Shown piece by piece: positions 5,414 to 49,611 of a DNA stretch of 64,000 nucleotides (position 1 is its first letter; each line of letters starts with the position of its first letter). Origin of the DNA: Coptis chinensis (lineage: Eukaryota; Streptophyta; Magnoliopsida; Ranunculales; Ranunculaceae); NCBI GenBank assembly GCA_015680905.1, contig CM027385.1, positions 78,265,501-78,329,500 on the forward strand, given 5' to 3'. The notes under the pieces were generated by a model. The model was not told the origin of the DNA. It searched no databases and saw nothing but the letters and a program-made list of their open reading frames with translations. The translations under genes were made by a program, and so were the position numbers.

Positions 5414-5860
5414 TAAGTAAATTATAAGTCTCTAACCTTAAATAAGTAGTCCATATCCATATCAACTTCTCTACTATATTAAGACACCAAACATCAATGT
5501 ATCAAACTAACTCATGGAAAAATCACATGACTGATCACCCACTCTGTTTACATAATCCTTGTATGAGCAACTAAATGGGCTTGAGCAGGAAGGAGAAAAA
5601 AAACAAGGACTTATAGGCCTTCTTTTATGAACTCTTGACCACAAGCCCACTATCTTGTGTGTTAATTAATTTTTAGTGTGGGTTTTAGATAAAAGAAATA
5701 ACTCACAAAGTTTAGTTTGGTTCCGTTTGCTATACAGGTGGCAGTGGATTGGAACCTCTTCAATCAGGTATTGCTACTTTGTTTTGTTTATACATGTTCA
5801 TAATTTGATAATTTTTTGTCACATAAATTATATGTGTCATTTTATTTTTTTGCCCATTCG

Positions 5861-8671: not shown

Positions 8672-8676
8672 CATAG

Positions 8677-11640: not shown

Positions 11641-11674
11641 ATATACACACCTTAAAAGGATCTCGTCCCGAGAT

Positions 11675-14454: not shown

Positions 14455-14842
14455 AAAAGATATGGTTAAGCCAAAACAAAATCATTAAACATTAAACTCT
14501 TTACCCTTCTTCGAGTAATTCCTCGACTTGCACTTTCATTTAGATCCAATAGCTTAGGTGCCAACACGTAAGCCCGACTTTGAAACTGGTGCAGTCCCGT
14601 AGAATAAGTCTATCTGAAACTCCACCTCCCTCTTGGGTGGCAACCACGGAATCTCTGAAAAGCATCTTGAAGTCTCTCACTACTTCCACATGATATCTCT
14701 CGTGGGTATCTCTATAGGAAAACGAGGAAGCTAGACATCACCGAAGTCCTCCTTACTAACACGGGTGTGAATCAACCTTGGCATGCCGGTGTATTCACTA
14801 TAACCTCCCTCCTTGCACAATCCAAGGTAACATGATAGCGCG

Positions 14843-16268: not shown

Positions 16269-16402
16269 GATCTACAGTTCAAACAAAACTCCCATTAATA
16301 TTCACATATATCCAAAACTCTCAACACTATAACCCATATTCCACATCCGAGGATCACTTAGACTTTTCAACATTAAGCTAACTAGGGCTCGACGATGCAA
16401 AA

Positions 16403-19382: not shown

Positions 19383-19387
19383 CATAG

Positions 19388-27035: not shown

Positions 27036-27841
27036 AGTCCTGCAAAATTTGTTCCCTACCCAAATTAAGGAGTAAACACTTAAAGTCATTTTACCACTAA
27101 AATGTTCCGATTCCACCCATTCATAGACTCTCTTTCTTTTTAGCAAGATCTCATGGATGATTTGATGCAAACTTACACAATTACACATCCCTTCAAACTA
27201 AATCACATATCTAAATCCTAAGTAAATTATAAGTCTCTAACCTTAAATAAGTAGTCCTATCCATATCAACTTCTCCACTATATTAAGACACCAAGCATCA
27301 ATGTATCAAACTAACTCATGGAAAAATCACATGACTGATCACCCACTCTATTTACACAAATACACAATCTTTGTATGAGCAACTAAATGGGCTTGAGCAG
27401 GAAGGAGAAAAAAAACAAGGACTTATGGGCCTTCTTTTATGGACTCTTTAGTGTGCGTTTTAGGGCCTGTTTGTTTTGATGGAAAATATATCCAAAATTT
27501 TTTACGGAAAGGAAAAGAGAAGAACGAGAAAAAAAAAAAGCCCCCTCTCCATCTTCCTCTCAAGTCTCATCTCTTGTTTTGCTTCACCAAGCTAAAGTTT
27601 TTCCACACCATAAGGTTTTTTTTTTCTTCCGTTTTTGGATTTGTATATATTTTTTCTTTGACTGCCTCTTCGAGTTTTGAATGGTTTGGGGGCTGGTATA
27701 TATTTTGTGTCCGTGGTGGTGTGGTGTAACATTTTCAAGTGTATCTGTTGTATAAGCAATAGCAGTAGTACTAATACAAATCTGGTTTTAAATATTTTCT
27801 ATTTCCAATTTTCGTTAATACTTGTTTGTTGCCTTCAAAAG

Positions 27842-27947
27842 GGACAAGGATCAAACAATTTCATGCCTTTTGGTGGAGGAATGAGATTATGCGCTGGCTA
27901 AGAAGAGTACACAAAGCTGCAAATGTCTGTGGTGTCACGAAATACAG
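27842..27947 (+). pseudogene. Cytochrome P450 heme-loop exon, broken
   Basis: An acceptor (TTCAAAAG) is followed by GSNNFMPFGGGMRLCAG, the P450 heme-binding loop FxxGxRxCxG with its cysteine, then a stop where Ala or Pro normally follows, then EYTKLQMSV, a deletion of about a dozen bases, and VTKYR at a donor (ATACAG|GTAAAC). The wording (FGGGMRLCAG, KLQM, VTKYR) points to the CYP85 clan. No other P450 exon is seen nearby, so this is an isolated, inactive exon. It lies inside a block present only in copy B of the duplication. Confidence 0.8.
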
Positions 27948-28292
27948 GTAAACTACTTAACTAAAGTGCTCTGTAAAATTGGTCATTCAATGTGTAGTTT
28001 CACATGGCACTACTTTGAACTTGCAAAATTCTTAGGTGGACCAATATCAAGAGAGGAGAAATAGTTTGACGGCGAATATAATTGTATCTGTTCGTTACCG
28101 TTTTGAGTATGAAAATATTGTCGGAAACAAATGTGTTATTGGAAAAAGGAATTTGGTTGGTTTCTTTATGACTGAATCTATGTTGAAACTTATCTAATTT
28201 GTTGTGTAATCTGTTAGTGTAGATTGTCTAGATTTGAACTAGAAAAACAGAAGTAACTCACGGAGTTTAGTTTTGTTCCTTTTTCTATACAG

Positions 28293-28322
28293 GTGGCAGT
28301 GGATTGGAACCTCTTCAAGCAG
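28293..28322 (+). other. Possible non-coding 5' exon of HSCB
   Basis: Thirty bases lie between a good acceptor (TTTTCTATACAG) and donor (AAGCAG|GTATTG). The next acceptor (GCCCATTGCAG, near 28421) opens the exon with the HSCB start codon. The same 30 bases with their splice sites recur in copy A (about 5735-5765). A leader exon is an inference; RNA reads would settle it. Confidence 0.4.
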
Positions 28323-28444
28323 GTATTGCTACTTCAATCATGTACTCTTTTGTTTTGTTTATACATGTTCATAATTTGATAATTTTTTGTCACATAATTT
28401 TTTTTTTTTTGCCCATTGCAGGGAAGTAAAATTGGAAAATAAAA

Positions 28445-31400
28445 ATGTGGAGCAAGAAACTGTTGATCTCAATTCTACGTACCCGGGGTAGTTTTTCATC
28501 TATTTTGGTTCCAAAGCAAAAGTTTTGCAGAGTTTTGTATTACTCTTCTTATAACTTGAGAGAATCCAAGGGCTGTGGAAATAACTTTTTGGAAAACTGT
28601 AGCTATTCCAGAAAGAATTTCTCTTCCAATGTAAGTAGCAGTAGATGTTGGAACTGTAATGCTGTTGCGACGTTGAAGCCTTTTCTTGCTTGTCAGTCTT
28701 GTAGAAGCATTCAGCCGGTTGATCCTTCTGTTGATTACTTCCAGATATTTCACCTGTGAGTGTTCAGTTTTTTTTTTTTGTATTTATTTATTTCCAATTG
28801 TGTTTTCTTTAATGTTTTGATAACTTTATAAGCTTACTTTGATTGAAACAGGGAGAAAATTTATGGCATAGACGATAGTCATCTTGAAAGCAAGTACAAA
28901 AACTGGCAAAAGAAACTGCATCCTGATTTGGTTCATACAAAATCTGAGGTTTGTTTTATTTTGGTGTGTTTCTCTCATTTTTTTTGTTTTTCTTAGTTCA
29001 ACTGACTTTTTTTTTTTTTTTTTATTATTATTGTTATTGTATTTCCCTTAGAAAGAAAGAGAATATGCTGCTAAACAATCGTCTCTTGTCATTGACGCCT
29101 ACCAAACACTGCGGAAGCCGTTGTTAAGGGCAATATACCTTGTAAGAATATACATATACTTTTTAATTTACGGTTTCTCTTTTCTAGGAATTGTTATCTC
29201 CAGGTGTTAGTTGTTGTACCTTAGCTTTTTAGGTCTTCTTGTTGAACATGAATGCTAGGCTTTTGTAGTTTCTTTTCTCTGTTATTGTCTATACTGTCTA
29301 CATTTGGGTGAAGAAAGGATACTAGTTCAAATATTGGTTGCATATTGTATGACTATATATGTATACAATACCCTTTGCTGAACTAAGATGTTTTAGGGGA
29401 GCCTCCGGTTGGTATATACTGCGAATATCCTGGGGTTATCACTGCAAAAATGATTTTTGTGTTTCCCTTGTTTTCCTATTATATTCATCCACTTAATGAA
29501 GAAGAGCACAAGAACTTATTGGCTAATGGATTCTACTAGTTAGGCCTTTATTGAAGAGTGATTTTAGGTTTACCTTTTTTGGCATATAAAGGGCAAAGAT
29601 TGATTGGATCCATGCCAGTACACGCACTTCTTTCCTACATTTTTCCTTTTTTTCCTTTATTGCCTCCTTTCTTTTGATAGATGATTGTGATAGTGGTGCT
29701 GCTGACTTCATGGCTACACCTCCTCTCTGTTGTCCCTTGTTTACGTGTTTTCATTTTCTTTCTTCTAGTTGTTATTGTCATTTAAGGCTTTAATAGTGTC
29801 CAGAATGCTAGTTCTGATGATTTGGTCATTGACAGTTGCAACTGGAAGGTGTTCACATGGATGAAGAAAAAACAGTGTCAGAACCGGAATTGTTGGCTGA
29901 GGTGAGTTCTATAGCTTCTTTCCTGTTCAGTAATGCATCCGTATCTGAATGCTTCTTGTTGATCTTAGGATTAGTAATGATTCTCTGGGCCCCTCTGTAG
30001 TAGCTCTGTCTTCTGAATCCGTTGGCTAGAGATGCTACTTCTCTTTATAAGCCCATTTCTCCCTAGACTAATCTGTAGTTTGAAGACTCTAACGATACTC
30101 AATGCTGCCCATGAAACGAGCTAGAAGCCCATTTCTCCTTAGTTCAATCTATCATTTTCAGACTCTGACGATAGATTATCGCGGAGGGATGTGAAACTGC
30201 TGTTAAACCGCGCTCTACCGGCCGTGTAGCAGTTTTTGCTAGTCTCGTGGATCGAGATCGAGATCCTAGATCTCACACTCACAAGCAAGAAAGAAGAAAA
30301 CCAACATCCTCTCTGTTCCCATCATCTTTCCCCAAAAACAAGATCTGAAAACCCAGATCGATAATCTTTGTATCAGAATCAGGTTCAGATAAATTAATTT
30401 CATATCTAGATCCTACGAGAGATCCCTAAATAGAGCTTATAATGGAAGAAAGCAGCCAGCCCTATCACTGAACACAAACTATAAACTGAAGTTCCGTATC
30501 TTTTAGGCCTACTGGGATTAAAGCGAGAAAGAGAAAGAGAAATTATCCCTTCCCTCCCTCAGAGCGAATTCAATAGCATTGGACTAACTCGCCACGGGAA
30601 AGCACACAAGCAGGAATAGTCAAGCAATCGAAAAGGCACTGGTAACTATCTCCTCTGGTTAACAATCTCCTCTTCTCCTCGCTCTACTAGTTTTCATTAT
30701 GGTATTGAACAGGCACACAAGCAATAGTCAAGCAGGCAGGAAAGCAAGAAATTGTCATAGTAGTTCTAAAACCCTCCTGCTCCTCGTATTAGCAAAAGCC
30801 TGCCAGTAGGAATGCTTTAGTTCTAAAACCCTCCTGCTCCTCGTATTAGCAAAAGTCTGCCAGTAGGAAAGCAAGCAAAGGTTCTGTAAGACCTTTACCG
30901 TCACCTTACCTTCTCGACTCCCCAACCCTCCGTCCTGTTACCTCTGTCATTCTCCTCTACTTACTTTTTCTATTTATCTAATCTTACTGGTGTTGGAGTA
31001 GCAAGCAACTGTCCCCTTCAACTGGCACAACACAAGCAATAGGAAAGAAAGCAGGCACAAAAGGCAAGAGAAGCAACAAGAAAAGAAAGTAGTTCAAGAG
31101 AACGTAGTGTAGTGAAGGAGGACTTCTTCCTAAAAGGAGTCCGACTGAGCGTAGCGAAGCGATAGGGAAGGCTAAGAAGAAGAAAAAGGGTAAAGATCCG
31201 CCCGATTGATATATACGAGAAATTACTGAAGCTTCTCCACTAAAAAACTAAAAAGGAACTGCAGAGGGTCCTCTGCCGGTACTTGTGGATTCAAGGGTAC
31301 AAGAAGGCCCGGTGGTGTGTGTGGTGCTTAAACAGATAGAAGAAAGCCAGCGAAGGTGAGCTGGTGCTCAAACTTATGATGCTAAAGCCCTTGCTTTAAT

Positions 31401-34400
31401 GGATGGATCTGTCTATGCCTATGTACCAGAAGTTGGAAGAGCAGCCCTTGATGAGGGGTACGCTTCTAGGTCTCAATCACGAAGGTCCTAATTCGTCGAT
31501 AACGATCTATAAAGGCGACCACGATCATGAGAAGCATAAGCTCGATAGGGATCTATATATGCGACTTAGTCAACAGCTTCAACTGATGCTCGGCCGCTCA
31601 CTATGCTCCCAAAGAGAAAGGAGATGGGGCAAATAAACTTGAGCTATTAATCCCAGTAGGCCTAAAAGATACGGAACTTCAGTCTATAGTTTGTGTTCAG
31701 TGATAGGGCTGGCTGCTTTCTTCCATTATAAGCTCTATTTAGGGATCTCTCATAGGATCTAGATATGAAATTAATTTATCTGAACCTGATTCTGATTATG
31801 AAGTGGTTGATGAAGATTATTGACCTAGGTTTTCGGATCTAGGTTTATACTTAAAGGCTGCTGCACATGCTGTTTCAGTTCTTAGAAGAACTATTTCTTC
31901 TTCTTCCATTTTATAATTGATTTCTTCATCTTCTTTGTAGAGTAATATTAAACTTCTTGCTATATCACACTCATGAAAATGTAATATACCTGCGCGGTAG
32001 ATTCTACCATGGAAGTCCATGAACGCTGGCAGATAAAATGGATGGTTTTGGTATGCTGTAGCAAGATTGATTACGAATGATTCATAGCTAGCTCGCTGCA
32101 CCCACTTTACTAATTCGTCTAACAAAGCTGATAATTTATACTCCTTCACTTCTGAGTCATTGATGTAACACAACCGACATACGTCCAATGCTTCTTGTAT
32201 AGGGACATCTGCCAGTCTTCCATCTATAAGAATACCAGCTGCTTCTAAATCAATACGATGATTTTTAAGTAGATTCAAGACTTCTTTATCAATCCTAAAG
32301 ACTTGAGACTGAAGTTTATTCAAAACTTCACAAACATTCTTTTTGTTATTCAACTTGATATAGAAATTGTCATAATCCTTAGAAGTAAATAGATTAAATC
32401 GATTATAAATTTCTCCTGTTAGTCTGCATAAATAACCACCTGTTATATCATTTAATGTTTTTGCAATTCCAGCCTTTTTAGATACCCAATCCATTGGCTT
32501 ACAAACCTTGGGAAGATTCAGTTTCATCGGCAACGCTTTTAAGTCAATAGTCAAAGTAGCGACACATTTCCTGTAAATAGAAACATTTTTCTTTGACTTT
32601 TTATCAGAAATTGTAATTATATTGATCAATTTTCTGTCACACAAGAACTCTACCAAGTAGATACCGATATTATAATCTTTTGTTGTACTTTTTTTCTTTT
32701 TCTTTTTTTCTTTGGTTTTCTCATCTTTATTTATTTCCTTGTTGGAATTGTCTTTTTTCTCATCTTTATTTATATCCTTATTGGAATTGTCTTTTTTCTC
32801 ATCTTTATTTTTCGAAGAAACTTGAAATCGAAACTTGAAATCGTACTAAAGATACAAGCTGGTCAATTAAAGTAGATACCCTAACCATGGGTGAGAAAGC
32901 AATATTGTGGAACACAGTCCCAAGTACATAAATCATTACAGCTTCCAGTGTATATGAATCTAAGACATTAATACAATGGTGATCCTCATCAGTTAATTTT
33001 TGCTGCTTTAGATACTCTTTAGCTGTAATCTTATTATCATTTATTACATAATCCATTATATTTTTATGATTCTTATAAATACTTTCCTCTTCAAATATCA
33101 TAGTTAGTCTTTCTATTTTCAACTGTAAGTCTATTTTTTCTTGCTCAGTGTATTTGGAACCATCCTTTTGTAAAATTTGATCATTTTCGGACATTCTTTG
33201 AAATAATATATTGTGATATTGACTCACACTAGATTCTTTTTTCTTTTTTTCAGAAATTTTTCTTTTTTCATCAATTTTGTGAATTATGTTCTTCCAAAAT
33301 CGATCAAGAATTTGTTGATTATTTAAATTAATAATTGGTGAAATCTCATCTTTACGTTCATTATCAGAACTATCACTATCAGAAAAACTACTATAACACC
33401 TAATACTATTCAAATAAATACGACTATAACACCTAATACTACTAAAAGAAATACGACTATTTAACCTAATACTACTAAAAGAAATACTACTATAACACCT
33501 AATACAATGAATATTCAACCCACACAAATTGAGACTCCTTCCATTAGTGACGTTCGATCCTAAATTCAACATCTTAGAAATACCAGTAGAAATCAAATTT
33601 CCATAAATACCAGTACAAGTAACATTAGTTGAATAAGATCTAGCATTTTTAAATGCTACGGTAGGAGTCGTCGGGGTCATTGGCAATTTCTCTATTTATT
33701 ATTTCACCTTACTTAAGAGACTTCGGCACGCTCCTAGTCCGAAGCCCCAGGCATCTGGTATCCTTTTGCGGAACACCTCCGCTTGCTTTTGCGCTATTGT
33801 TACTTATGGCTGTTATGTTTAGGCTTTTTTTAGAATCAATATAAGACTAAAGATTCAACATCCTCCCGTTGCCATACCCTGGATAAAGAAATATCCCTCT
33901 TTCTAAAACAAGGAATGATTGATTGATTATATTGGTTTCTAGAAAGAACCGGCTTTGAGGTTCATATTTCCAGGGAGGAATGCACCTATTAGGGTCAACA
34001 TATTTCCCTAATCCTCTTTATTTAAAATTTTCTAAATCAGAGAAAATCTTGGAATGAAATCCTTTTTATCAGAGTTAATATCTCTTTTTGTGGGATAGGT
34101 TTATTCTTTCTATTTTCTTTGGTTTACCCATCCGCTAGAGAGAAGACAGAAACATACGGCATAAGCACTGGAAGCAAAGGTAGAGGCTAAGGCAGCAGAA
34201 GTGAAGGCAGCAGCTACATCGAAAGGACTTTGTAACTAGAGAATCAGAAACTCTCAATGTAAAGTCTGGAATTAGGAAACTTAAAACAAACTGTAAGATA
34301 ATCTTAAAAGCACTAATGCATACTTTTTGAAGTCAACACTCATTGTTTCTTTCAGTCACTGCCTCTCAATGTATACCTCCCTTCGCCTTTTTGGGGCTAT

Positions 34401-37400
34401 GGGAGGTATACATTGAGAGTAAGTGAGCGAGTGAAATAATGTATGTAGCTCCGGATTGTTCTTGTTCTCTCCGGACTGTCTGTCCTGTTGGACAAATAGG
34501 CATGTGTTTTGAGTAAGAGTTCCACACAAGCCTAGGTTAGGGCAAGAAAAGGATAAGTCAACCCCTAAGGGAAATTCTATCTTAACTTGCCAGTCTAGGG
34601 GTATGGGTTTAACATCACAGTACACAGCAGTGATATCTTGGCTTCGATGCTGGTCGAGGAGTGCCACCGTTTCCGCAGGCTATAGCCAAGAGTTCACGGA
34701 GTCAGGTTACCACATGTCTACGGGCCACGCTCCAATCAATGCCTTCTTGTCCTCGAGTCCAGTAGTTCGATTCATGCTCTTGGGAATACCAGTCCTCCTA
34801 GGCAAGCTACTGTTTTAGGTCAGGAGCTCATCATGCAGCTATCTTTGAGACAGACATGCTTGTCTCAGTGAATACATTGCTTAGCCTGAAATGAACACTC
34901 GGTTTCATTCTTCACTCTACGCAATAAGAATTTGTGTTTCCTTCCTGAAGTATTCTGGGTTTAAGATGAGCTTACCAGTCTGTTTTAAGTTTCCTAATGC
35001 CTTTTCCTATCTTCATAGATAGTATGCACTAACATTCGTTTTCCTATTCCGGAACTATGCATTAGCTCGTAAAGCTTCTCCTTCGGCTTTCTCTTTAGTT
35101 TGACTAGTGGGACTAACACATTGGCTTTTTGAAGTCCTAGAAAACGAATTTCAAGGACACTCCTAGGGTTAAGGACCTTGAAGGTATAAAACCGTGTTCT
35201 AGGCCATAAACTACCATAAACTAATAGGCATTGAGTTCAATAATGTGTGTAGCTTATTAAGTGAGCAAAGCACAGGGGACAGAACGCTAAAGAGAGAAAG
35301 CAAAGTAAGAAGGTGCTGTCCTCAATCACATAAGCCAAGGGTGTTAGCGAAATTCTATTCATTTGTCTCTGGTAATGCAAGGTTCGGAAGAATAGGACCT
35401 GAGACAAGCATTTGGACTGCTCTAAAAGGCTGGCAAGAAAGCCTCTTTACAAGGAAGTGGAAGCTCTAATTTGTGGATTTCATTTCCTTCTGGGGGCTAT
35501 ACTCAACTATGCTAGCCTGCGAGCTTAGTTAATGAATCAAATCCTGCCCTTTTTTCTTAGGTAAGTAAGCAGCAGGTCGACCGGTGGGCTTTGAGCTACC
35601 AGAGCAAGGAGATACAGCTTTTCCTTCCGGTTAAGAATTCCTTATTCAACTACAAGTTAGGGAATGAAGGCAAGATAGAAGAAAATCTTACAGAACACCT
35701 TCTTAGGTAAGATCATACGAGTAGAAGATAGTACCTGGCATACCTACCCGTTATAATTAATGGCAGCTGGCAGAGCTCATTTCAAGGACTCAAGCAGTCT
35801 TAGTTATTCCCAGGCACTACAGAAGTTGCACTTAATAACTACCCATTCGTACGAAATCATGAATCTAATGATTCTCTGGGGAGCCTAGTGACAGATCGAA
35901 GTCAAGAATGCAAAAGCCTGTAACTGGAAAGCTCTTGCTAACGCTATTGTCAGAGATTCAAGACTGAACTGAACGGAGCGCGTGCTCGTGACTTAGACTG
36001 CCTAAATCAGTCTGGCTTATAGAGCCTTTGCTATCAAAAGCAGGAGATGAATAGATGAATCCACGCGGTGTCCAAACTACTAGTTCGGCTGAAACCAGAG
36101 ACGTAGTTGAGTGGGCCAGACCGGACCCTAATAAGTGCTTCTTAATAGTGCTTCCAATCTCGTGTGAGTTGGCCCCTCCATTGATCAATCTTAAGAAAGC
36201 CCAAAAAGAAGAGTCAAAACGGCCACTATTGCTTGAGCACGCTAACTTCATTGGTAGTGGTAATGGATAGTGGGGCTATAAGAGGAATGCCACACTTACT
36301 TGAATCTAGCGGCTATTGCCGGATTCAGTAGATAGATGAGCGACTAGAGCCAGAGGCTCAGGCTCCTCTTATTGAATAGTTGGCGTGATCCATATTCAGA
36401 ATTGCAAACCAATCTTGTGATAGTTGGCATGGTTCCAGACTGAGGAAACCTGGTGCTATCTATTGATGATTATAGCCTGCTGGAGGACTTATTAAGCCAG
36501 CAAGAATCTATATATAGAGCTGGGCTTTACTATTAAGTGGGTGAGTCCGGCCTTATTAGGCCCCACTGTGGAGCTTACTAATCCGGTGACTGATAGTAGG
36601 TTATTCTTCTTCTTATATTTTGCTTATTAAAGAAACCTACTGGCTGGCATATTCATTCGAGCGCTATTCATCTGCGACTATAGTAAGTAGTCTGGCACAA
36701 GATTCAAGTCTCCAGACTATAAGCCGGGCCTGGCTTATAGTCTGGTTAAAGTTTGTGTAACTTATTACCTACGGAGAGAAAGGCACTCCCGAGCAGAGGG
36801 AGGGCCGCCCGTCCTGTTACTCCTCTTCAAGATGTGAGCTGTTCAGGACTCGACTCGGTACAGCCAAGCCAGCCGCTTCTTTCAAAGATAGCTTTCTTCC
36901 TAGGGGATGGCACTACTGAGCTCCCTCCGGGGTAGTGGACTCGAGGAGTGCCTTCCTCTCCTCATGGGTACTAGTGACTTTAAGTTGTTATCAGAAGGTT
37001 AAAAACAAATATGAGATGAAAGCCCTCTCTAGCCCTAAGATAGAACTCCAAGATGTAACACAGGTGCATGATCTGTCTCCCGCACTTTTTGATTCCAGCT
37101 CTGGCTTCACCACCTTCTTCAGATTCTTTCTAGTTGGAAGAGTCGTGGTTGCTCCTTTCGAGTGGCTCTCAGGTGAACCTATTGCTTCAAGATAGGATTT
37201 ACTTAGTTTTCTTTCTTCCTGCCCTTTCCGGACTCTGTCGATGGTATGCTTTGGATGGCTTCTTGGGATGCTGTGTATGGTAGGTTTTCTCCTCTGCCGG
37301 GAATAGTATGCTTTCTTATAGTAAATAGGTTTGTTCAAGGACGAGGACCCGAACGAATCTTTTTCTTGAGAAATAGCCGGAAAGACAATAAAAAAGATTA

Positions 37401-40400
37401 AAAGGGCGAAGCCCTAAACACTCCTTTCTTTAGTAGCCAAGGCAGTAGCCTTTCCTTCCGGCGATATTAGCTTGGGTGGCTGGGGTAGATTGGTTTGGTT
37501 GACCTTGCTTTCTGCTATGCCTGAGATGGTATCCTTTGTTTGGGTGGTATGCTTTCGGGTAGTATGGTTTCTGTTCTGATAGTCAATTTCTTTAGTGAAG
37601 CTAGCCTATTTGATAAAATTATTTTCTCTCCTTCACACTTCACTCCTTAGAGGAAGGGATATGATTAAGGCCAAGGAAAGCTGTCCAATCGCTTCAATCA
37701 CTCCTATGTCAATTTTGTTTGCTGAGATCTTGCTACATTTCCCTCTCCTGCACCTGGGACTCGTACAGTCGTACTCTACTGCCGAAGCTCATGCTGCACC
37801 AACTCCAACTGCCTTCTCCAACGGGCCGTCATCATCTACATCAACTTATGAGAGCGTAGCAATCTCCGAAAGTGAATAAATCAAGTAGAAGTGCAGTAGA
37901 TGCAGAGCTGGGCTCCTTCTGGCACTGCTGTCAGCTTAGTCCTCTCTGTCATTGGTTTTCTCTAATTCAGCATTTTACAAGAGCAGAGGGAAAGAGTTCG
38001 TTTTTGAAGCCCTTCGAACGCTAAAGAGAGAAAGCAAAAGAAAGGGAACGAGGGGGTAGGGCGGACGGGGGTCTGTTTCCAATCTGACCTTGCTAAAGAA
38101 AAGAGAAAGATAAGGCTTTCTTCAAGTGTTTGACTTTCATGTAAGGCGAGTGGAAGGGTATCATTAGCATAGCCAGTTAATAGCCAGTTAAGGTAGCCTT
38201 CTTTTCCTTATAACTTCATACTTGCTTTGCCTGTTCCGGCTAGAAGGGATAAGACCAGGTAAGGACGAACAAAGGAGAACACCTTGCTTTTGACTTTCCG
38301 ACTTCCCTTTCTGCTGGACAGCTCTATCTTGATTCCACTTCAAGTATGGATCCCATTGACTGCTTTTTCTCTAAGATCTGTTTTGACAAATCGATGCTCT
38401 GGTGTACGGGCGGAATTGGGCATTGAGACATCAGATCACTGAGATTTGTTTCATACCAGCTGCGCTAATAAGTCAAATTGCTTTCTACCCACAAAAAGAT
38501 GGGGGTTTGATAAACATAGGTGCTTTCGAAACAGCGGTCCATTCAGCAAAGAAAGTGGATGTCCCGGGTTGAATAAACTTCTTGCTTCTTTGATCCTACG
38601 ATCTCACAAGAAGGCAATGCAGCTGCCCGTATTCGCTTATTTCCCTCCTGTGAAGAAGAGCGGGCTTGACAATCAGTCAGCGGCTTCGATCCGAAGGTCT
38701 CACTCTTCCTTTTCTATTGGTGAAATATATCCTGGCTGACCTCTTCAATGACGGCTCGCTCATACATCGTTGAGATTCAGAATTTGATACATAAGGATCG
38801 AGGAAGCAGCCGTCCTACATGAAACAAGCTACTATACTACAGAAACCTATCGATCGAGTAAGGCCATCAGACTGGTTACCTACCCTTTAGGCTACTTATT
38901 GTTCTTGAAAGGAGACATACCTCTAGAAGCTCTGATTGTGCTGAATCCGAAGCCAAAGAATGAATAAAGTGAAAGTAATAGATAAGAAATGGAACCTCAA
39001 GTGAGTGCGCAGTCCCAATACGAAGAAGAAAGGGGCGAGCTTACGGCATCTCCTATAAATTGGATCATCTCATCAATTCCTTTCTCTTTGATTGATGTTC
39101 AAATCGTTTCTCATGCAACCAAGCAGGCCGAACCAGCCCAGATCTTATCAAAAGCTTTTAGTGTTAGCTTTGGAAGTGTGCAATAAATGTGAATTGTTAC
39201 AGGATGGAATCAACCAAAATACATGTTGTGTCAAAACTTTTATTCAAAGTGCTTCATCATGTTACAATAGTCCCGCTGGAAATCCCTTATCTTGTATGAC
39301 CAAAAACCGAAATATTTGTGCAAGTTCACAATTTCGTGTGAACTTCTGTACCGTGGACAAATACAATTATGACTTTACGAGAATGCTTTTTGCAATCTCT
39401 TGCTAGTTAATATGATCAAATTTAGCCATCAGAAAATTGTAGTCGGATCCATTATACATCTAGACATGTGAGAATTTTATAAAGTGCACTTTTGTATATG
39501 GAGGAGTTCTAAGGAGATAACACTTGGAGAGAAGCACCAAGCCATCCCTCTTATAGTTTTTTTTTTTGTGTCCCAGAGATAAACAAGACATTTGATGGGG
39601 GCATGGGGTGTGCATACATCATACATGTGCCACAACTGGTATGGACGGCTGAATTAAATCAAAGAGAGCCGTAGATATTGTCACTGAGTAGTGCTGTACA
39701 TTTTGAGTGACATCTGCATTTATCTACTATATAGAAATAATAGAATACATACAGCCATATTGATGGTAGCCTGGGTAGTCGAGACCAATATTCTACAAAG
39801 TTACTATCTTGGATGATTGTCAGAGTCTTCCAAACCAAAATTTACCTCTTCTATTACAGTACTCATTTACCTTGTACTATACCTTGATGTTCAAATAAGG
39901 TAAAAACTACACAAGGAAAGAGAGGTGGTGAAGTCCAGTATAGTATGCTGGTCTGCCGTGTTCTCAACATGACCCTAGCATCAGTTTGGAAGAATCCCTG
40001 CAACAACGTGTACAACTGTTAGGATCAACTCTTGTGGAAAATCTCAATGAGTTCTCATTGACGAGGTCAAGAGATGAATTTCCACACTGTTCCGTATGAT
40101 TAACCTTTTTTTCTTGTAGGCCTGGGGTTCTGGTAAGCCCTAGCAATCCATGATCGAATAGGTCTATTGTTGTTATGTTACCACTGTGCAGCAAACCTGG
40201 TTGTGTATTACAAAGTATCTGAATTTTTTATTTTCTTTGGGTAAAAATATTTTTTTACTAATGTGACATTTTACTTCTTGTAATTTCTGATACAGATGAT
40301 GGAATTCAGGGAAGCTGTTGAAGAGGCTACTAGTCCTCAAGCACTTAAGGAAATTGAGTATCAGGTAAGACAACCTGGAAGCTTGCAGATTTGAACCTTT

Positions 40401-40713
40401 GGTTGTCTCTGTATAACAAATGCATATACACACTGACCTCATAAACCTGATGTGCATCGATTTGAGTTTGGATGCGTCTGCTATTGGCAGAAGCTAGTGG
40501 AAAATAGGTGTCCTTGCTGCGTTGTCATATGACCAACTATGTACACATGATTATATTGTATTTTCTTTTTTCAAGGTACAAGAGAAGATGAAAACTTGGT
40601 CTAAATTGTTTGACAATGCTTTTAAGGATAGGAAATACGAAGATGCCATCTCTTCGATCCAGCGAATGACATACTACCACCGCATAAATGAAGAAATTAC
40701 AAAGAAGCTGTGA
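28445..40713 (+). CDS. HSCB: HscB/HSC20-type J-protein co-chaperone for Fe-S cluster assembly
   Basis: Six exons join in frame with GT-AG sites: 28445-28755, 28852-28948, 29052-29141, 29836-29901, 40296-40364 and 40576-40713, giving about 256 residues, the usual length of plant HSCB. The N-terminus is basic and hydroxylated, consistent with mitochondrial import. Two CxxC pairs (C68/C71, C83/C86) form the zinc-binding knuckle seen in eukaryotic HSCB. The J domain follows with HPD at about 127-129 (KKLHPDLVH), and the C-terminal helical co-chaperone domain (MKTWSKLFDNAF, AISSIQRMTYYHRI) ends the protein. HSCB stimulates the mitochondrial Hsp70 and delivers the ISCU scaffold. The fourth intron is about 10.4 kb and contains mitochondrion-like DNA. 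All exons look intact, so the gene may still work if the intron is spliced. Confidence 0.92.
30050..30173. repeat. 76-bp imperfect direct repeat in HSCB intron 4
   Basis: AGCCCATTTCTCC(C/T)TAG and ACTCT(A/G)ACGATA recur 76 bp apart (30050 and 30126). It lies right at the left edge of the mitochondrion-like block. Confidence 0.65.
30341..30521. repeat. Inverted repeat arm 1 (plasmid-TIR-like)
   Basis: Reverse complement of 31647-31840 over about 180 bp with few differences and one indel of about 17 bp. Shared words include CAGATAAATTAATTTCATATCT, AGGGCTGGCTGCTTTCTTCC (inverted) and GATACGGAACTTCAG (inverted). The arms are 1.1 kb apart. Confidence 0.85.
30761..30869. repeat. 57-bp tandem duplication
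   Basis: TAGTTCTAAAACCCTCCTGC through GCCTGCCAGTAGGAA is repeated in tandem with one or two base changes, inside the mitochondrion-like block. Confidence 0.85.
31647..31840. repeat. Inverted repeat arm 2 (plasmid-TIR-like)
   Basis: Partner of 30341-30521. The 3' end of the RNA polymerase frame (minus strand, stop near 31817) runs into this arm, so the polymerase is cut short here. Linear mitochondrial plasmids carry terminal inverted repeats next to their polymerase genes. Confidence 0.8.
31817..33686 (-). pseudogene. Phage-type (T7-like) RNA polymerase of a linear mitochondrial plasmid, truncated
   Basis: The N-terminal frame (33686-32805, 293 residues) includes a serine/arginine repeat region (RCYSSISF, SSIRLNSR units) and EAVMIYVLGTVFHNIAFSPM. 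A second frame (32656-31817, 279 residues), shifted relative to the first, contains LPAFMDFHGRIYRAGILHFH, the conserved DxxGR-Y motif of single-subunit RNA polymerases. Between them three 39-bp repeats (32721, 32760, 32799) encode a KDEKKDNSNKDIN unit. The later catalytic Lys/Tyr and His-Asp motifs are missing because the frame ends in an inverted repeat. Such genes are carried by linear plasmids of plant mitochondria and drift into mitochondrial genomes. It cannot be active as read. Confidence 0.85.
34363..34419. repeat. Perfect 19-bp hairpin
   Basis: CTCTCAATGTATACCTCCC and its exact reverse complement are separated by 19 bases. Stem-loops of this kind mark transcript ends or recombination spots in mitochondrial DNA; no neighbouring gene was recognised. 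Confidence 0.8.
36712..36745. repeat. Perfect 14-bp hairpin
   Basis: CCAGACTATAAGCC and GGCTTATAGTCTGG are separated by six bases inside the mitochondrion-like block. Function unknown. Confidence 0.75.
39081..40295. other. Remainder of HSCB intron 4
   Basis: AT-rich intron-like sequence between the mitochondrion-like block and exon 5. It has no independent gene; frames at 39092-39406 and 39964-40457 lack motifs. Confidence 0.5.
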
Positions 40714-41867
40714 TAGATTTAATTGCTATTAAATCTTTTATTCACCAAGTTACTGAGTCAATGAGAAGATCAAGCTCACCCATTACCCCACTGTCATAGA
40801 GAAGCTGGGATACTTCTGAAAGATGTGAATACGTGCTTGTACTCCTCACCTGGTCTTCCCAAGGATTCTCATGAGGTGTAAAATCAGTCTTTCCAAGGAT
40901 TCTTGTATGGTCACCAAGAGGTATTTTGGGGGCTCACTTGTCATTACTTCAATGATACAATTGATTTTAGATGCAATGAATCTGATCTGGTAGATTTTGA
41001 TACAAGAGGTCTGCAACTTATGCTAGGTATGGCTAGAAAATAAGTGACTATTTAGTATTTACAGGATATTTTTTATATTTTGTAACTTTCACAGCACAGT
41101 GATCGTATAAAATGAAATTAATAAGAAATATTCCATTGTATTCGTGAAGTATAATTAAACCGGTGATTGCAGTCTGATTATTGAGATGTATCCCATCTAT
41201 AAGATGTCATATTGGTGGTATTTAGTAGAACCAGAAAAAAGAAAAGAAATTCAACTAAGCAGTTGGTGATTGGTCAGGGTTCGTTTATTTATTATTATTT
41301 TTTTTTAGTTTTATTTTTTGCAGCAGCATTTAGCTCTATGCCAGCAAAATGCATTTTTGATTGTCTAAATTTTATGTTCAGTATGTCGAGATGTATGTCT
41401 GGTTGTCCAGTTAAGGTGTTGGAAAAACAATATAGAGCTCTAAATCCTTAAAGAAATGATTGTTTTTCATACACTAGTTTCTATATAATGGAGGAGCATT
41501 TGTAGGTCTGCATTGATCAGGCTCCCGATCCAAATAAATATTTAGTCACCGTAAGGGCGGGTTGGGAGTTGGGACCGATACCACCATTTGGTTGCTATAA
41601 TCCAAATCCTCATATGCCTGCCTTTTCTCTGCCCTTCCACTATGAATATTCTATATTTTAGTTTCAGTGTTCTATCAATTAGGAATTTTAGTTATTCCAT
41701 TTTGATAACTTGATAAGGTTCCCCAGTTCCTCTAGCTTTTCTCATTTCCCACTAACATAAAACCACCACACACATCCCATTCTTCTTTTCTCCAGTAGGA
41801 ACCTTTAGATGTTTCTTGGAGCGCATAAACGTAACACACAGTCACTTTGCCCACTTCTAGTTCCTCC

Positions 41868-41875
41868 TATAAATA
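41868..41875 (+). promoter_or_regulatory. TATA box of the small heat-shock gene
   Basis: TATAAATA lies about 83 bp before the ATG, with CTTCTAGTTCC just upstream resembling a partial heat-shock element. Other partial TTC/GAA modules (TTCTTGGA) lie near 41810. A perfect three-module element was not seen. Confidence 0.6.
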
Positions 41876-41957
41876 GTCATGCAAGTATGCAACTCTCTTC
41901 AACTCATCCACAGGAGAAAGAAGTTCGTAGTTACTAGCAGACTGTTTCTTTGGCAAA

Positions 41958-42422
41958 ATGTCCATCATTCCCTCATTCTCTGGTCCTAGGATCAATATCC
42001 ATGACCCATTCGGTTTGGACTCCTGGGATCCTTTTCATAACTTCCCCTTGGAAGGAATTATTCCTAAAGAGAGATCGAAGTTCACTGACAGTCACACTGA
42101 TTGGAAGGAAACACCGAATGCGCATATTTTCAAGGTCGATCTTCCAGGTTTCAACAAGAATGAGGTGAAAGTTGAAATCGACCATCAGAAAGTCCTTCAA
42201 ATAAGTGGACAACGAAACAAGGAGGAGGAGGTCGGAGAAAAGAATGACAAGTGGCACCGTGTTGAGAGAAGCAGTGGGAAGTTCATACGAAAATATAGGC
42301 TGCCAGAGAATGCTAGTGTTGATCAAGTGACAGCCGGGTTGGAGAATGGTGTACTCACAGTTACTGTACCAAAGGAGGAAGAAAATAAGGTCCATGGGAG
42401 ACTGGTTGAGATATCGAATTAA
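41958..42422 (+). CDS. Class I cytosolic small heat-shock protein (HSP17-18 type)
   Basis: A single uninterrupted frame of 154 residues, the usual class I length and intronless as usual. The N-terminus MSIIPSFSG...[11 protein letters not shown] is the class I signature. The alpha-crystallin domain covers about residues 45-140, with [20 protein letters not shown] and the second consensus region ([27 protein letters not shown]). The tail ends LVEISN, the I/V-x-I/V motif that docks dimers into oligomers. These ATP-independent chaperones bind unfolding proteins in the cytosol under heat. A TATA box lies about 83 bp upstream. The gene is compact, between HSCB and the TBL gene on the same strand. 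Confidence 0.95.
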
Positions 42423-42959
42423 TTTGAAACTCCTGATTACTAGTGATTATATGTGTCGGTTATTGTAATATGCACTATGCAGATTGGTCACAGGTGCATG
42501 AACATATATTCAGTGTCATGGGTCGTATAATGGTAACTGGAATAAACTACATGAATCATCTTTCACATCCAAAATATTCCAAGTTTCGGACTCCTTAATT
42601 ATGATCACCGCTCTTTTAAACGATACTTACCAGTATCTGCAGTTCGAACTCCTTGTCAAGCTCATTAATAGGTCACCACAAGAGAAAACTTCATCCTAAT
42701 TTCCCAGAGGTGCGAGTCGACTCGGTCTAGCTGGGACTAGAATGACACCTATGACTTATGAGTTATGACTTATTATAACTGGAACTTCTATTAATGAAAT
42801 CTGTCACAGTTAGTGTTGTTCCTTTCAGATTTCACATCCTATATATACTTAGATATAGGATATGCATTTATTCATGAAATCAAGTCCTGAATGCAAAATT
42901 TTCTTTTAACTTCCACCGTACCCCATCGTTTTCCTTCTTCTATCTAAACAGATCAAAAG

Positions 42960-45900
42960 ATGGAATTCTCATCATCTTACCATTGTTTCTCAGCTATTGC
43001 TGTCCTTATAATATTTATCCAACAAGCAAATGCCAATCTGATGCACCTCAACAAACCAGGAAGGTTACAAACAAGTAGTTGTAATGTTTTCGATGGTAGT
43101 TGGATCTTTGATAGAGCATACCCTCTTTACGATTCAACAAAGTGTCCATTCGTTGAGCGGGAATTCAATTGCCAGAAGAACGGTCGACCAGATAATTTGT
43201 ACCTCAAGTACAAATGGAAGCCTAATGGTTGTGACTTGGCCAGGTACTTCTCATCTTCTTTGAAGGTTCTGCTCATCTTATACATGATGCAGTACCTGCT
43301 ATAGTAGTGTCGTAGTGATGTATAGTAAGTATTTTGCTTATGAGCCAGTGTGAACCATGTGCATGTCTCTGTGTAATTGATAAGGTCTTGTAATAAACTG
43401 TATGAACCAGTAGTGATGTATGTGTTTCCAGACCAAACATCTTGAGAAACTGCCGACATTTGTTATGCAATTAATTATCGTTGCAACTTGCAATGATGTG
43501 GGCGCAGACCTTATCACAAGACCTGCTGGAAATGGTTGTGGGATGTAGAAGTGATAAAAGCACTGGCAACTATACTTGGCTAACTTAACAAATCATCCTT
43601 GTTAGGTATGTAGGGCGTGCACCCGGTTCATCGGATCTATTTAGAGCTGGACTCATCCCCAACACCCACCCTCTGAATCTTGATCGTTATGTGGACAATC
43701 CCAACCTCTGTCGCATTATTTCACACGAGAATTTTAATATGAAAACGCAGTACAGTAAACACATGATCAGTGATGACTAGTTATGGTGATCAACCAAACA
43801 GACATGCCAGCTGACAAAGTGTGGAGCCTATTTGGTGCAGGAAAGTAACCAATAATCAAATAATGTATGATTACAAATCAACCAAAAGTTTGTATGCTAC
43901 TTTTGGTTCTCACGTGACAAAGATTCTTTATGTTCTTGTTAAGAAATCTAAGCAAAAGTTGCACTGAAGAATTTAAAAATGTGAAGTTCTGATTTGTGAA
44001 CACAGTCAACACTAGCTGCTATTGGATTCGGGTCCGGCCATCTTTTTACACTCTTTCGTTAAAGGAAACCCTGTGTAGCTTTTAGCATATTTTGATGTGT
44101 TTTCTTGTCTCTTTTTTATTTTTCTTTTTGGCTAATTGCATCCATCAATGTAGGTTCGATGGTGTAGATTTTTTGAGGAGATTCAAGGGGAAAAGCATCA
44201 TGTTCGTGGGGGACTCACTTAGCTTAAACCAATGGCTATCCTTGATATGTTTGCTTCACAATGCCGTGCCCCAAGCGAACTACACCATGAAGAGAGGAGA
44301 CCCTCTTTCCACATTCACAATCACGGTAGGTGTTAAATATTGTCTCATGACAACAATTTTTTGTCATGACTCGAATAAGACAAAAAAATGTCTCCATTAG
44401 TATTATTGTTGATGGTACTGTTTGACCCGAATTCTAAACCAAGAAAAAAAAATCATAGTTCCGATTCTTATTTTTAGGAACTGTTTAAAAATAGGTACTT
44501 AAAAAACCGAACTATATAGAATTGGAATCAAATGGGTTTTTAAACAAAAAAATCATATCAAAATTGGAACCGGAAGTTCATACTTTTAACATAAAAAATA
44601 TCGAAATAAAAAATATAAAAACTGAAAACATTCATTTATATATTATTAAAATTTATTTATTAGTATAATATATAGTTTTCATAGCATTTATATTTAATGT
44701 TATAAATAATACAAAAATATAGTTTATAACCTTAAATATATGATTTTATTTAACTTATTATCGAATGGCATAATTACTTATATGATCAATATTTAAAAAG
44801 TGACTCGTTCATGCAGTATTTTGTTATTATCGAAAAAAAAAAAATGCAGTATTTTGTGTTTATAGTACACATTTTTTTAATAAAATTAATAAAAAAATGT
44901 ATAAATAGTGAATCTCTTAAGAACCGGAACTGAGAATATCCACTAGAAACCGATGGTTATGGGTATAGTCCCACACTCCCACAATTTTAAGAACCGTAAA
45001 AAACCAAAACCAAATTCTTACAACACTAAGAATCGGACGTATTACGACACTTAGCAGTGCCGACCCTGGGCCTATGCTATCTAAGCCCATAGGGCCCCCA
45101 AAAATAAGCAAAAAAACAAGGTCCCGTTCTATTTACAAAAGCCTACTATAATGTTAAAAATCCAATAGAAATTCATTACAAAAGCCCAATCTACTAAAAA
45201 ATTGGGAACAAAAAGTCGCGAGAACTTCCAGGCATCATGAATCCTCTTTCTTCAGTTTCTACTTTCTAATTAGTATGTGTTTGAAACACTGTATTTCTAC
45301 CGCCAATATCCTCTTCAACTGAATTAAAGGATGCATATACATTGTTAAATTTAACTAGATGAACTAATATTCAGGTTGGTTTCTCTAACATACCTTCATA
45401 TAAGCTTATTTTGGAATTAAGAATTAGAACTGTCTGAATTAACGGAAGTTGTGTGAGTTTTGATGCATGCTTTAAACACATAGAGGTGGCAACTGTTATG
45501 AACAAATTAGGTGCCAGCCCTAACCGCCTTAAAAGAAACTGTTGTGAACAAAATTCACTAGCCACTTTTGTGCAAAGCAAAGTGCACGAATAGTCCTCTG
45601 CACCATGTCCAGTCTGCGAAATTGAGTTGCATCTTCAATTCATTGAAACTTTTGGAGAAATGCTGCCTAACAATTGAGTTATATGCATATAAGATGTGCT
45701 CCTGATATGAGTAAAGTTAGCACTATTTCAGTTGTGTAAAATTATTTGTTACTCGGGACTAATCATAACAAAGCTTGAAAATGGTTTCTAGGATTACGCC
45801 ATATCAGTGATCCTCCTCCGCAACGTGTATTTAGTGGATGTGGTGAGTGAAAAAATTGGCCGCGTTCTTAAACTTAACTCAATAGAGGGCGGCAATGCAT

Positions 45901-46900
45901 GGAGAGGCATTGACACACTGGTCTTCAACACATGGCATTGGTGGAACCGCAGAGGCACTACACAACCGTACGAATTCCTAACACGTGATCGATGATTTTG
46001 AACGATATTAATTTCCTTTTTATGGACATCGTAGAAGTTACAAGTATATGTTGCTCGACTTACAACCGAACAATTTATATTTTTTGCTGCAGATGGGACT
46101 ACATTGAAGAAGGAACAAAGATTTACAAAGACATGAATCGTGTGGTTGCCTTCGAGAAAGCTTTGATAACTTGGGCCAAATGGGTAGATACAAATGTTGA
46201 TCCTACAAAAACCAAAGTATTCTTTCAAGGGATTTCTCCATCTCATTACAAGTAAGCTTCGCTACACACTGTTTGTTTTTAAGACTAACTTTAATCCTAA
46301 TTTCCTATTCAGTTATCCTATAAAATGTGAAATTCTACCATAGCAATATGAAATTGAATAGCACATAGCTTATATAATTAATGTTAAAAGTGGAAATGTA
46401 GGTACCATGTGCATAGGCTGTAAGGACTTGACGTGTTGTTTCTTGTATATGTGTAGATAAAAAAAATTTGAATAAACATGTTTTAACAGATTGGAGATGT
46501 CCCTAGGAAAAAAAATGGCAAAAATTCCTTTGGGGCCATGTAATTACGTTTTTATTCTCGATTTGTTCGTGTGTTCATGCTTAATTTCGATTACTATTCC
46601 AGTGGAAGTGAATGGGACGAGCCGAATATCAAGAATTGTTTGATAGAGAAGCAGCCAGTGAAGGGCTCGACGTATCCTGGAGGTTCACCACCAGCATTAG
46701 CAGTGCTTAAGAATGTATTGAGAACAGTATCTAAACCAGTCTACCTACTGGACGTAACGACATTGTCGCAGTTGAGGAAAGATGGACATCCATCGATATA
46801 TGGTCTTGGTGGACAAAGGGGAATGGATTGTAGCCACTGGTGTCTAGCTGGGGTTCCTGATACTTGGAACCAAATTTTGTACAATGCTCTTCTCCCTTAA
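42960..46900 (+). CDS. TRICHOME BIREFRINGENCE-LIKE (TBL) polysaccharide O-acetyltransferase-like protein
   Basis: Five exons join in frame with GT-AG sites: 42960-43243, 44154-44325, 45792-45967, 46093-46251 and 46603-46900, giving about 362 residues, a normal length for the short TBL members. The N-terminus is a hydrophobic signal or anchor ([14 protein letters not shown]). A TBL/PMR5N domain follows ([36 protein letters not shown]), then the GDS box [11 protein letters not shown] with Ser116, and near the C-terminus DCSHWC with Asp339 and His342, completing the esterase-type triad. TBL proteins act in the Golgi on cell-wall polysaccharide O-acetylation. The wording is closest from memory to the TBL37-43/PMR5 group; the exact member and substrate are not known. 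Intron 2 is about 1.5 kb. Confidence 0.93.
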
Positions 46901-48145
46901 AAAGGGAATGCTGGAATTGGATCAGGAAATGATATATTGCTTAGATCATAATAATTTCAAGGTTGGGTAAATTTTATTTGATACCAATTTTTAACTATAC
47001 TGAGAGTCTCCTGTATTCATTATCGAAAAAAAAAAAAAGAGTCTCTCCTGTATTATATTATGAAATTTCGAATTAATATTATTCTCAAGATGGTCATTCC
47101 AAAGTAAAAGGGTAATTGCCTAATTTGGCCATGATAAAAGCACCTTGTGCTCCAACCGGTGGTGCCTTTTAATTTTGACATTTTCAATGGGTTTTTGACC
47201 TTTTTGCTTTTCCTTACAACACTCTCTTTCCTCCGGCCATACTCTCTCTCCTCTTGTATTTCTGATGTTGACAAGCACATTGATAGTTGCCCGTTAGATT
47301 CTCTTCGCGATACGTTCTGACAATTTTTTACCATTAGATTCAACCCAACAAAAATGAAAACCTAGTAGTCATTTAAACCAATAGAATTACTTATTGTGGG
47401 AATGAGGGAGTAGCAATTTCTTGCTCTATTATCAACAACTGTTTCGTAGTTTTGTTGTACGGACATGAAACAACATTAACCTCGATTTTTGTGCCAAACT
47501 ATAAAAGTTTTTACAAACCTCCAAAACTTCCAGTTTTTTTTACTTAATCTTCTTGATTATCCTCTCCTTCGTGATTTTGGTAAGGTTTTTCATGGAGGAA
47601 AGAACATAAATCTTGATATAGAATTTTTCTAATGTTCATCTTCTTGATTATCCTCTCCTTCTACGGTTCTCATTGTTTATTGATATGTTTTGAACTTTGA
47701 TTTGTTGTATTTAGTATTGGTTTGTTTCTAGGTCGTCTTGGGTTTGTTTTTATGTAGTAGTGTATAGAGTTTTTTAAGGTTTCCATAGTTGTATTTACTA
47801 TTTCCATGTTGATTTTATTATTGTTGCATTGAGTGAAGAAGTATGTAATAGGTGAGATGAAATTGAGAGTGTTTGATGTGTATATTTCCTTAGAAGGATT
47901 CATGTGTCTTGTGGAAGGTTTGTCCAAGCGCATGAAATTGAGTTTTTGTGTGATGTACTTGATGAACAAGTCTCTTTGTAGATTGATGAAAAAATTGACT
48001 ACTTGAATATGATTCAAAAGTAGAAGAAGACAACTGTGCAGTCATTGTGGTGAGCTTGGATTGCCTTTTCAGCTGCGGTTTCACCAGGTTTTAGCAATAA
48101 AGCTAGACTGTGTGGATGCCACCATCAGCTACATTTACATATACC
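46901..48145. other. Intergenic, no gene seen
   Basis: AT-rich. A word TCTTCTTGATTATCCTCTCC occurs twice, near 47548 and 47638. Frames on the minus strand at 47053-47343 and 47670-48017 have no recognisable motif. Confidence 0.5.
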
Positions 48146-48150
48146 GTCAG

Positions 48151-49606
48151 TGATAAGCACCCAAAACTGTAATATAAACCCTGTAGAGACATTACATATT
48201 GGTTAATTATGTATGTAATAAATGCAAATTAATTGTATTTTCATACTTTTTGCAGGTTTCGACACGTAAACGATGAAATTTCAACAAAATTGGCATTTAG
48301 TATGGAAACAAGGTGAATATGCTAATTGGAAACAAAGCTTTTTTATCAAGTCCAAAAGAAGCCCATTGGAAGCTTAAATCAAGCTCATGAAGCCTGGTCA
48401 AAATAGTCAATTCCGGGTCAACCCTGGTCAAGTCTTGCAGAAAATTAACATAACTTCAGAAAATCATATATTTTGACTCCGAACTCCGTTTTGGACGTGT
48501 GACCTGTCAAAACGATCAGCGCGACAAGCTCTACATAATGGTATATAGGTTCTATCAATTTACTGGGCTAGAAATTAAAACAGATCCAAACTAAGACAAA
48601 GTAAAAATCCAATTACTATTCATCATGATATCATTAAGTGGAAGCTTATGTAATCACCCACTTTCTCCACTTAATATTTGCACAAACCACTCATAATTAT
48701 TTATCTTGTAATAGGAATTACTATTCACCCACTTTCTCCACTTAGATTAAATAAATTCTATTATAAAAATAGATTAATTTGTAACCTTTGGATTGAAAAT
48801 GTAAGATGTAATCTTGGCCCCCCATTTCACTCCTTTGAAACTATAAATAGGAGGGGTGGTGCTCTAAATAAACTTGCCAATTTACTTTTGATTTGTGGCC
48901 TTGTATCCTTTCACTCTCTTCTTCTTCTTCTTTTTTATTTTTATTAGTTGTAGCTATCTCACCATGGACTAACTCATCCCTTGTGGAGGGTTAGATAAAC
49001 CCATGTGAGGATAACTCTACTATTGAAGATGTAACTCAATTGCTTAAAATTTAACAAGTTTGATTTTTGCTTCAATTACAAAATAGTTAGAAGTGGAAAA
49101 CAAACTAGAGGTTGAAGAAGTGCTCTAAAGATAGGGTGCTAATTTAATCTCTCATACTAGTAGAATCTCTTTAGAGATTTAGAAATTCTATTAGGGATCA
49201 AATTAGTTTAATTATTCACTTTGATTTGTCTATGAATCAAAGTGAATATGAAAACTAACAATTGAAATATGCCTTTCATTAATAGTAGTTTGAATTACAT
49301 GGTAAATCAATCCTCCACACTTCTCTCTATTCTATCTTCTTTAGTCATTTTAGAATAAATTTGTTATTAGTAAATTTTGTAACTTATAATTAAAAAAAGT
49401 AAAGTATAGTGTAAAAACTTCCACCTAAAGCCTTCTCTCATTTAAGATTTCTCTTGAGTAGTCTAGCTAGCTAAGTTGTGAACCAAAAGTGCTTCAATGT
49501 TAGGCATGAGACGATTCCTTTACTCGAACTATATTTCAACATGAATCGAGAGTAAGGTAATTGATATAAGTGTGAGTTGGAGTAACGTCCAATTTAATAC
49601 TTATCA
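48151..49606. mobile_element. Solo LTR (TSD GTCAG)
   Basis: It starts TGATAAGCACCC and ends ATACTTATCA, with the 5-bp duplication GTCAG at 48146-48150 and 49607-49611. It is 1456 bp with no internal region, primer site or coding capacity, so it is the product of LTR-LTR recombination. Its start matches the LTR at the left window edge. Confidence 0.92.
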
Positions 49607-49611
49607 GTCAG

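Follow-up and report, generated by a model that had tools for sequence, protein, structure and literature searches.

We analyzed a 64,000-nucleotide stretch of Coptis chinensis DNA, C9:78,265,501-78,329,500 of an assembly of 935.6 Mb (hereafter the window), and focused on the gene HSCB and on a block of mitochondrial-type DNA within its fourth intron. A sequence-only reading of the window had proposed six HSCB exons that read through with good splice sites and an intron 4 of more than 10 kb at 29902-40295. Both proposals were borne out. The six joined exons form an open coding sequence of 771 nt whose sole stop is the last codon, all five introns begin with GT and end with AG, and the limits of intron 4 are exact to the base. 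The gene and the block are laid out as follows, with differences from a second copy on contig C9 (the C9 twin) and from a paralogue on contig C7 noted where they fall.

28445-28755, forward strand: HSCB exon 1, starting with the ATG at 28445 and holding two CxxC pairs (seen by eye)
28852-28948, forward strand: HSCB exon 2, with the J-domain HPD motif inside
29052-29141, forward strand: HSCB exon 3, with AT as its acceptor in the C7 paralogue
29836-29901, forward strand: HSCB exon 4, with the sole coding difference from the C9 twin at 29857
29902-40295, forward strand: HSCB intron 4, 10,394 nt long, or 1,240 nt without the block
29979-39145, no strand assigned: inserted mitochondrial-type block of 9,167 bp, with edges taken from the empty site on C7; also present in the C9 twin
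40296-40364, forward strand: HSCB exon 5, ending with the codon TAG in the C7 paralogue
40576-40713, forward strand: HSCB exon 6, including the stop codon

The predicted protein matches HSCB_C (PF07743) with E 2.8e-17 and 63.3 bits (cut-off 22.1). Its match to DnaJ (E 4.8e-5, 23.8 bits) lies below the cut-off of 27.8, and the HPD motif is present in the protein. Arabidopsis HscB is described as residing in mitochondria and cytosol and as rescuing a yeast jac1 mutant (PMC2764847). Searching the genome with the HSCB_C family gave no match, we think because the domain is split by introns, and the protein was therefore used as the query instead. This search returned 21 candidates, all of which were scored, with 19 exon matches that were confined to three places: the window (C9a), C9:77.966-77.979 Mb (C9b, the twin) and C7:12.617-12.628 Mb. 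The C9 region is present twice, about 328 kb apart, and both copies hold the block. This doubling had been missing from the sequence-only reading, as had the apparent pseudogene state of the blockless paralogue and the nuclear-repeat pieces in the block that are described below.

The C7 paralogue provides an empty site. In a genome search with 28400-41200 as the query (38 of 243 candidates scored), the sequence up to window position 29978 and the sequence from 39146 onward were found to adjoin on C7, with only 13 nt between them. Read base by base, C7 consists of GGATTAGTAAT, 13 nt (C7:12,626,951-12,626,963) and TATCAAAAGC, whereas C9 consists of GGATTAGTAAT, 9,167 bp and TATCAAAAGC. Nearly identical 13 nt are retained in repeat units 2 and 3 of C7, so that the blockless state would most simply be ancestral and C9 would have lost 13 bp at the insertion. 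No target-site duplication is visible at the block in the comparison with C7, and the flanks continue in both C9 copies. The comparison upholds the uptake of about 9 kb that had been proposed for 30180-39080 as an insertion, but sets its edges wider. Nuclear DNA on both sides, an empty homologous site, a small loss at the junctions and no target-site duplication are among the marks of a nuclear copy of mitochondrial DNA (NUMT), and the block is most likely a NUMT of the known kind. With its empty paralogous site and measured junction loss, this would be a well-bounded transfer from organelle to nucleus that offers a better before-and-after record than usual.

The paralogue itself has decayed. 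At C7:12612001-12632000, the part that begins in intron 4 and extends toward the HSP20-like gene's start lies in three tandem units with deletions and insertions, and our model of the C7 gene combines exons 1-4 with exons 5-6 from the second unit. Its exon-3 acceptor reads AT instead of AG, and codon 211, the last of exon 5, is a stop. Compared with C9a it carries 21 non-synonymous changes over 619 sites and 6 synonymous changes over 152 sites, which are about equal rates. Given the broken acceptor, the stop and the equal rates, the C7 copy is, as judged from its sequence, a pseudogene. All intact HSCB genes that we found therefore carry the block.

The two C9 copies of the block are collinear with indels and show 202 substitutions across 9,181 alignment columns (about 2.2%). 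The left junction is identical in both, and the right junction lies inside one aligned stretch, 36745-47107. Transitions and transversions (ts/tv) between the two copies, which would have arisen after the insertion, number 139/63, a ratio of about 2.2. These observations bear on whether mitochondrial reads were wrongly joined into the HSCB locus. Our analysis rests on a single assembly, which leaves room for such a chimera, but a block shared by two copies about 2.2% apart with a common left junction, the nuclear type of the later differences and the 13 bp missing at the site all argue against it, and we regard it as extremely improbable.

Divergence between C9a and C9b is uneven, ranging from 0% (42000-44000, around the HSP20-like open reading frame (ORF)) to 2-4% elsewhere, with some insertions present in one copy and absent from the other. 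This pattern would suit two haplotypes of one locus that the assembler placed serially. On the other hand, three additional matches to 49000-50438, part of which is a dispersed repeat, lie within C9:78.02-78.36 Mb (40 of 593 candidates scored). One of them is inverted, and together they are in keeping with a duplication cluster. The haplotype reading is quite possible, if somewhat short of an even chance, and it would leave our explanation of the block unaffected. As a separate observation, a 57-bp direct repeat at 30761-30872 has two copies in C9a opposite a 57-bp gap in C9b, so that C9b probably holds a single copy.

Could both C9 genes be defunct, with some unseen gene serving the cell? The swollen intron 4 and possible gaps in the assembly speak for this idea. 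However, all six exons and their splice sites are intact in C9a and C9b, the coding sequences differ at only one of 771 nt (Met/Val at 29857), and the protein search of the genome yielded nothing beyond these two genes and the broken C7 copy. The low coding divergence is a weak argument and no proof of selection, since the sequence near exons 1-4 (28500-30000) differs by only 0.4-0.8%. Taken together, we consider it very unlikely that the C9 genes are defunct. As no other intact HSCB gene was found, the entire 10.4-kb intron is presumably still transcribed and removed.

Inside the block, the following features were recognized.

30372-30521, no strand assigned: left arm of an inverted repeat, 150 nt, 99% complementary to 31647-31796 at a spacing of 1,125 nt
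31647-31796, no strand assigned: right arm of the inverted repeat, beside the RNA polymerase piece at its cut end
31817-33695, reverse strand: disrupted 5' portion of a gene for a phage-type RNA polymerase of the mitochondrial linear-plasmid type, in two frames
31817-32845 and 32805-33695, reverse strand: the two ORFs of the RNA polymerase piece
33811-34050 and 34293-34378 (within 33811-34378), no strand assigned: two pieces with counterparts upstream of the RNA polymerase in the plasmid copy on contig C6
34395-35303, no strand assigned: piece found in nuclear repeat family A, which occurs, among the matches listed, on C71, on C100 and on at least eight of the nine contigs of large size
37418-37907 and 38017-39114 (within 37418-39114), no strand assigned: two pieces also found at C8:52.66 Mb in changed order and orientation
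38304-38706, no strand assigned: piece found in nuclear repeat family B, with an RPL5-like fragment next to it in one copy

The RNA polymerase piece ties part of the block to mitochondrial plasmids. Its own ORFs have no significant Pfam match, and it was recognized through relatives on C6 and C3 with 83% and 87% identity. The C6 relative extends beyond the point at which the block copy is cut and shows RNA_pol (PF00940), followed by DNA_pol_B_2 (PF03175). The RNA_pol match (E 9.3e-5, 21.8 bits) falls just under the cut-off of 22, with a second piece at E 0.0093, while three of the four matches to DNA_pol_B_2, the 'organellar and viral' family, pass their cut-off of 25.8 bits (43.7, 40.8, 25.6 and 55.4 bits; best E 6.4e-15). 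Matches in the PDB were non-significant; single-subunit RNA polymerases made up 15 of 18 in one set (polymerases at E of at least 0.63) and 15 of 19 in another (E of at least 0.19), on the same stretch of chain. Mitochondrial linear plasmids (invertron type) carry both genes, one for a phage-type RNA polymerase and one for a B-type DNA polymerase. The former is present in the block as a piece only, identified via the C6 relative. A B-type DNA polymerase was not found in the block by Pfam in six frames; with this gene only in the C6 relative, the block holds a plasmid fragment and not a plasmid. The arms of the inverted repeat have no match in the C6 stretch. Among viral contigs, we found no relative of the RNA polymerase piece and no exact match to a 23-base repeat. 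An AlphaFold2 model of the piece was discarded (pLDDT 32.5).

The C6 stretch deserves mention in its own right. Positions 3565-9159 of C6:100170001-100180000 (L022) appear to be a mitochondrial linear plasmid copied into the nucleus and since decayed, with pieces of both the RNA polymerase and the B-type DNA polymerase. The relatives in at least three places of the genome (C9, C6 and C3) suggest that a selfish mitochondrial plasmid travels to the nucleus with such DNA.

Composition also sets the block apart. We cut the window into 42 pieces of 1.5 kb, 6 from the block and 36 from the rest. Steps of the type AG/GA/CT/TC reached 1.23 in the block vs 1.005 elsewhere (P 1.5e-6), and TG/CA steps 0.95 vs 1.12 (P 3e-4); GC and CpG did not differ significantly between these pieces (P 0.15 and 0.30). 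By a cut for 2-kb pieces that was set after the window values had been seen, block-like composition occurs in stretches of loci that bear relatives of the block, on C8, C6, C5, C4, C71, C100 and C2, at C7:18.37 Mb (one piece) and in the C9 twin. It is lacking at other loci that bear relatives, namely on C3 and in the family copies L024, L026 and L033-L035. The GC content of the block is 40.8% overall and 43.8% in 34050-39145, and published Coptis mitochondrial genomes have 45.7-45.8% (PMC10258346); as a clue to origin this comparison is only suggestive.

A further line of evidence comes from the substitutions. In the RNA polymerase piece, ts/tv was 53/74 between block and C6, 40/67 between block and C3 and 19/57 between C6 and C3, three pairs that share sequences and are not independent. 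Against a nuclear baseline of 287/206, pooled from five comparisons, the corresponding P values were 1e-3, 1e-4 and 6e-8. The comparison of the block with C5:83 Mb gave 21/33 (P 0.009). Ratios of 0.3-0.7 before the insertion, as opposed to 2.2 after it, point to plasmid-copy divergence that is mostly transversion-rich and to later changes of the nuclear kind. Thus, most of the divergence among the plasmid copies seems to have accumulated under a transversion-rich regime. Such a pattern fits plant mitochondrial DNA. The substitution pattern therefore appears to agree with an organelle history for the plasmid piece, but not for every piece of the block.

Several observations weigh against a mitochondrial origin of the whole block. 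Six-frame Pfam searches of the block gave no significant match and no canonical mitochondrial gene, and neither ARAGORN (tRNA) nor Rfam at gathering scores found anything in the block, the rest of the window or the relative loci scanned. No mitochondrial gene turned up in the scanned parts of the neighborhoods of the block's relatives, where Pfam covered the whole minus strand of L022, the plus strand of L021 and L034, both strands of L004, the first 4.8 and 4.5 kb of L031 and L032, and ten single ORFs (nine on the plus strand of L022, one in L019). Some pieces of the block recur in families A and B, which are nuclear repeats of larger size. Composition also flagged two 2-kb pieces of L041 that are not part of the block. 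With the C7 flanks alone as the baseline (96/86), P rises to 0.06 for block-C6 and 0.015 for block-C3. Finally, ts/tv is nuclear-like between block and C8 (60/30) and in five family B comparisons (13/7 to 17/3), and mixed in three family A comparisons (27/31, 45/32 and 37/42).

One could read these points as a block composed of nuclear repeats, with several transposable elements of which one carried a plasmid-like polymerase, and containing no organelle DNA. The location of 34395-35303 and 38304-38706 within larger nuclear repeat families, the nuclear-like ts/tv of the C8 and family B pieces and the lack of any canonical mitochondrial gene in the six-frame Pfam search of the block would all suit this idea. 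Yet the RNA polymerase is of the plasmid type, the pieces of the block resemble one another in composition and differ in it from most of the window, and the block entered as a single clean insertion with a 13-bp loss. Moreover, the only other long copy of 35330-38010 is in C9b, and the remaining matches are fragments no longer than about 490 bp (34 candidates, all scored). We therefore consider a purely nuclear composite unlikely. The shared pieces can be explained either by repeats that captured mitochondrial DNA or by mitochondrial DNA that had earlier acquired pieces of repeats. About 4.4 kb can be aligned between two copies of family A, and a gag domain lies further along in one of them. 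The description of the block as mitochondrion-like is thus supported, indirectly, for its type by the plasmid RNA polymerase piece, the composition and, in part, the substitution pattern.

Family searches of the genome found scattered pieces of organelle-type genes (3 fragments of COX1 and 24 matches to Proton_antipo_M), none of which, by eye, lies within 0.4 Mb of the listed relatives of the block. We also noticed by eye that an element with inverted ends, accompanied by the 8-bp duplication CTTGGGAA, breaks up the family A copies on the small contigs C71 and C100 and on C2 (L026-L028), in each case at the same position.

Taken together, these data make it very probable that about 9.2 kb of mitochondrial DNA, including a plasmid piece, was end-joined into intron 4 of HSCB. 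The nuclear chromosome would have broken inside the intron, and the break would have been repaired by joining in a linear mitochondrial stretch of about 9.2 kb, or a few joined stretches, at the cost of 13 bp and without a visible target-site duplication. Part of this DNA would have come from an integrated mitochondrial linear plasmid, as a degraded piece with the RNA polymerase gene, and the parts of the block outside the plasmid piece would be mitochondrial as well. Most likely the block is a neutral passenger that served as filler at a double-strand break and has since been carried along and spliced out. That organelle DNA sits in a gene serving the same organelle is most simply a coincidence, as we found nothing that makes the link causal. 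The transfer would be of an ordinary kind that overturns nothing; part of its interest is that no intact copy of this probably important gene was found without the block.

Other rearrangements have break points close to the insertion site. The C7 tandem units, two of which begin at the same junction, start at ATTAGTAAT, 9 nt before the left edge of the block. The sequence 39146-39600 has a dispersed copy at two places near C9:83.55 Mb, which starts at the block's right edge to within 3 nt; the two places probably reflect one event, given their identical left flank. Three rearrangements within about 24 bp, a pattern noticed post hoc, could mean a fragile site or chance. We consider it unlikely that these 24 bp of the old intron 4 are a recurrent break point that explains the capture of organelle DNA. 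In this unlikely scenario, the mitochondrial DNA in every intact HSCB found could modulate how a gene needed by mitochondria is spliced.

The rest of the window adds some observations on its own. The small heat-shock (HSP20)-like ORF at 41958-42422, named by eye, lies directly downstream of HSCB. Upstream of HSCB, the sequence 27040-28397 recurs in pieces about 22 kb to the left, at 4398-5826, with 84-94% identity. Positions 8671-19386 resemble a long terminal repeat (LTR) retrotransposon with LTRs of about 3.0 kb (8671-11643 and 16397-19386) that are 95.1% identical, and related sequence is found at 57-59 kb.

Most plastid and mitochondrial DNA copies in plant nuclear genomes are located in introns or untranslated regions, and end joining at double-strand breaks is described as their route of integration (reviewed in PMC7037861). 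The HSCB block resembles plant NUMTs in its intronic position, the lack of a visible target-site duplication, the small loss at the site, its mosaic content and its nuclear-type decay. Unlike typical plant NUMTs, it contains a plasmid gene piece and pieces of nuclear repeats, and its probable assignment to mitochondria derives from the type of its sequence. Unit S of Lactuca saligna is described as an integrated linear plasmid of plant mitochondria with a phage-type RNA polymerase and a B-type DNA polymerase (PMC6742443). The block shares with unit S, as described there, the phage-type RNA polymerase, and the C6 relative shares the B-type DNA polymerase too. In contrast to unit S, the block is nuclear and broken, contains just the initial portion of the RNA polymerase and has no proven terminal repeats. 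In Ustilago maydis, a mitochondrial homing endonuclease gene is reported to have inserted into a nuclear gene and truncated it (PMC7593156). As in that account, a selfish mitochondrial gene would have moved into a nuclear gene in Coptis, but the HSCB block is intronic and leaves the coding sequence whole.

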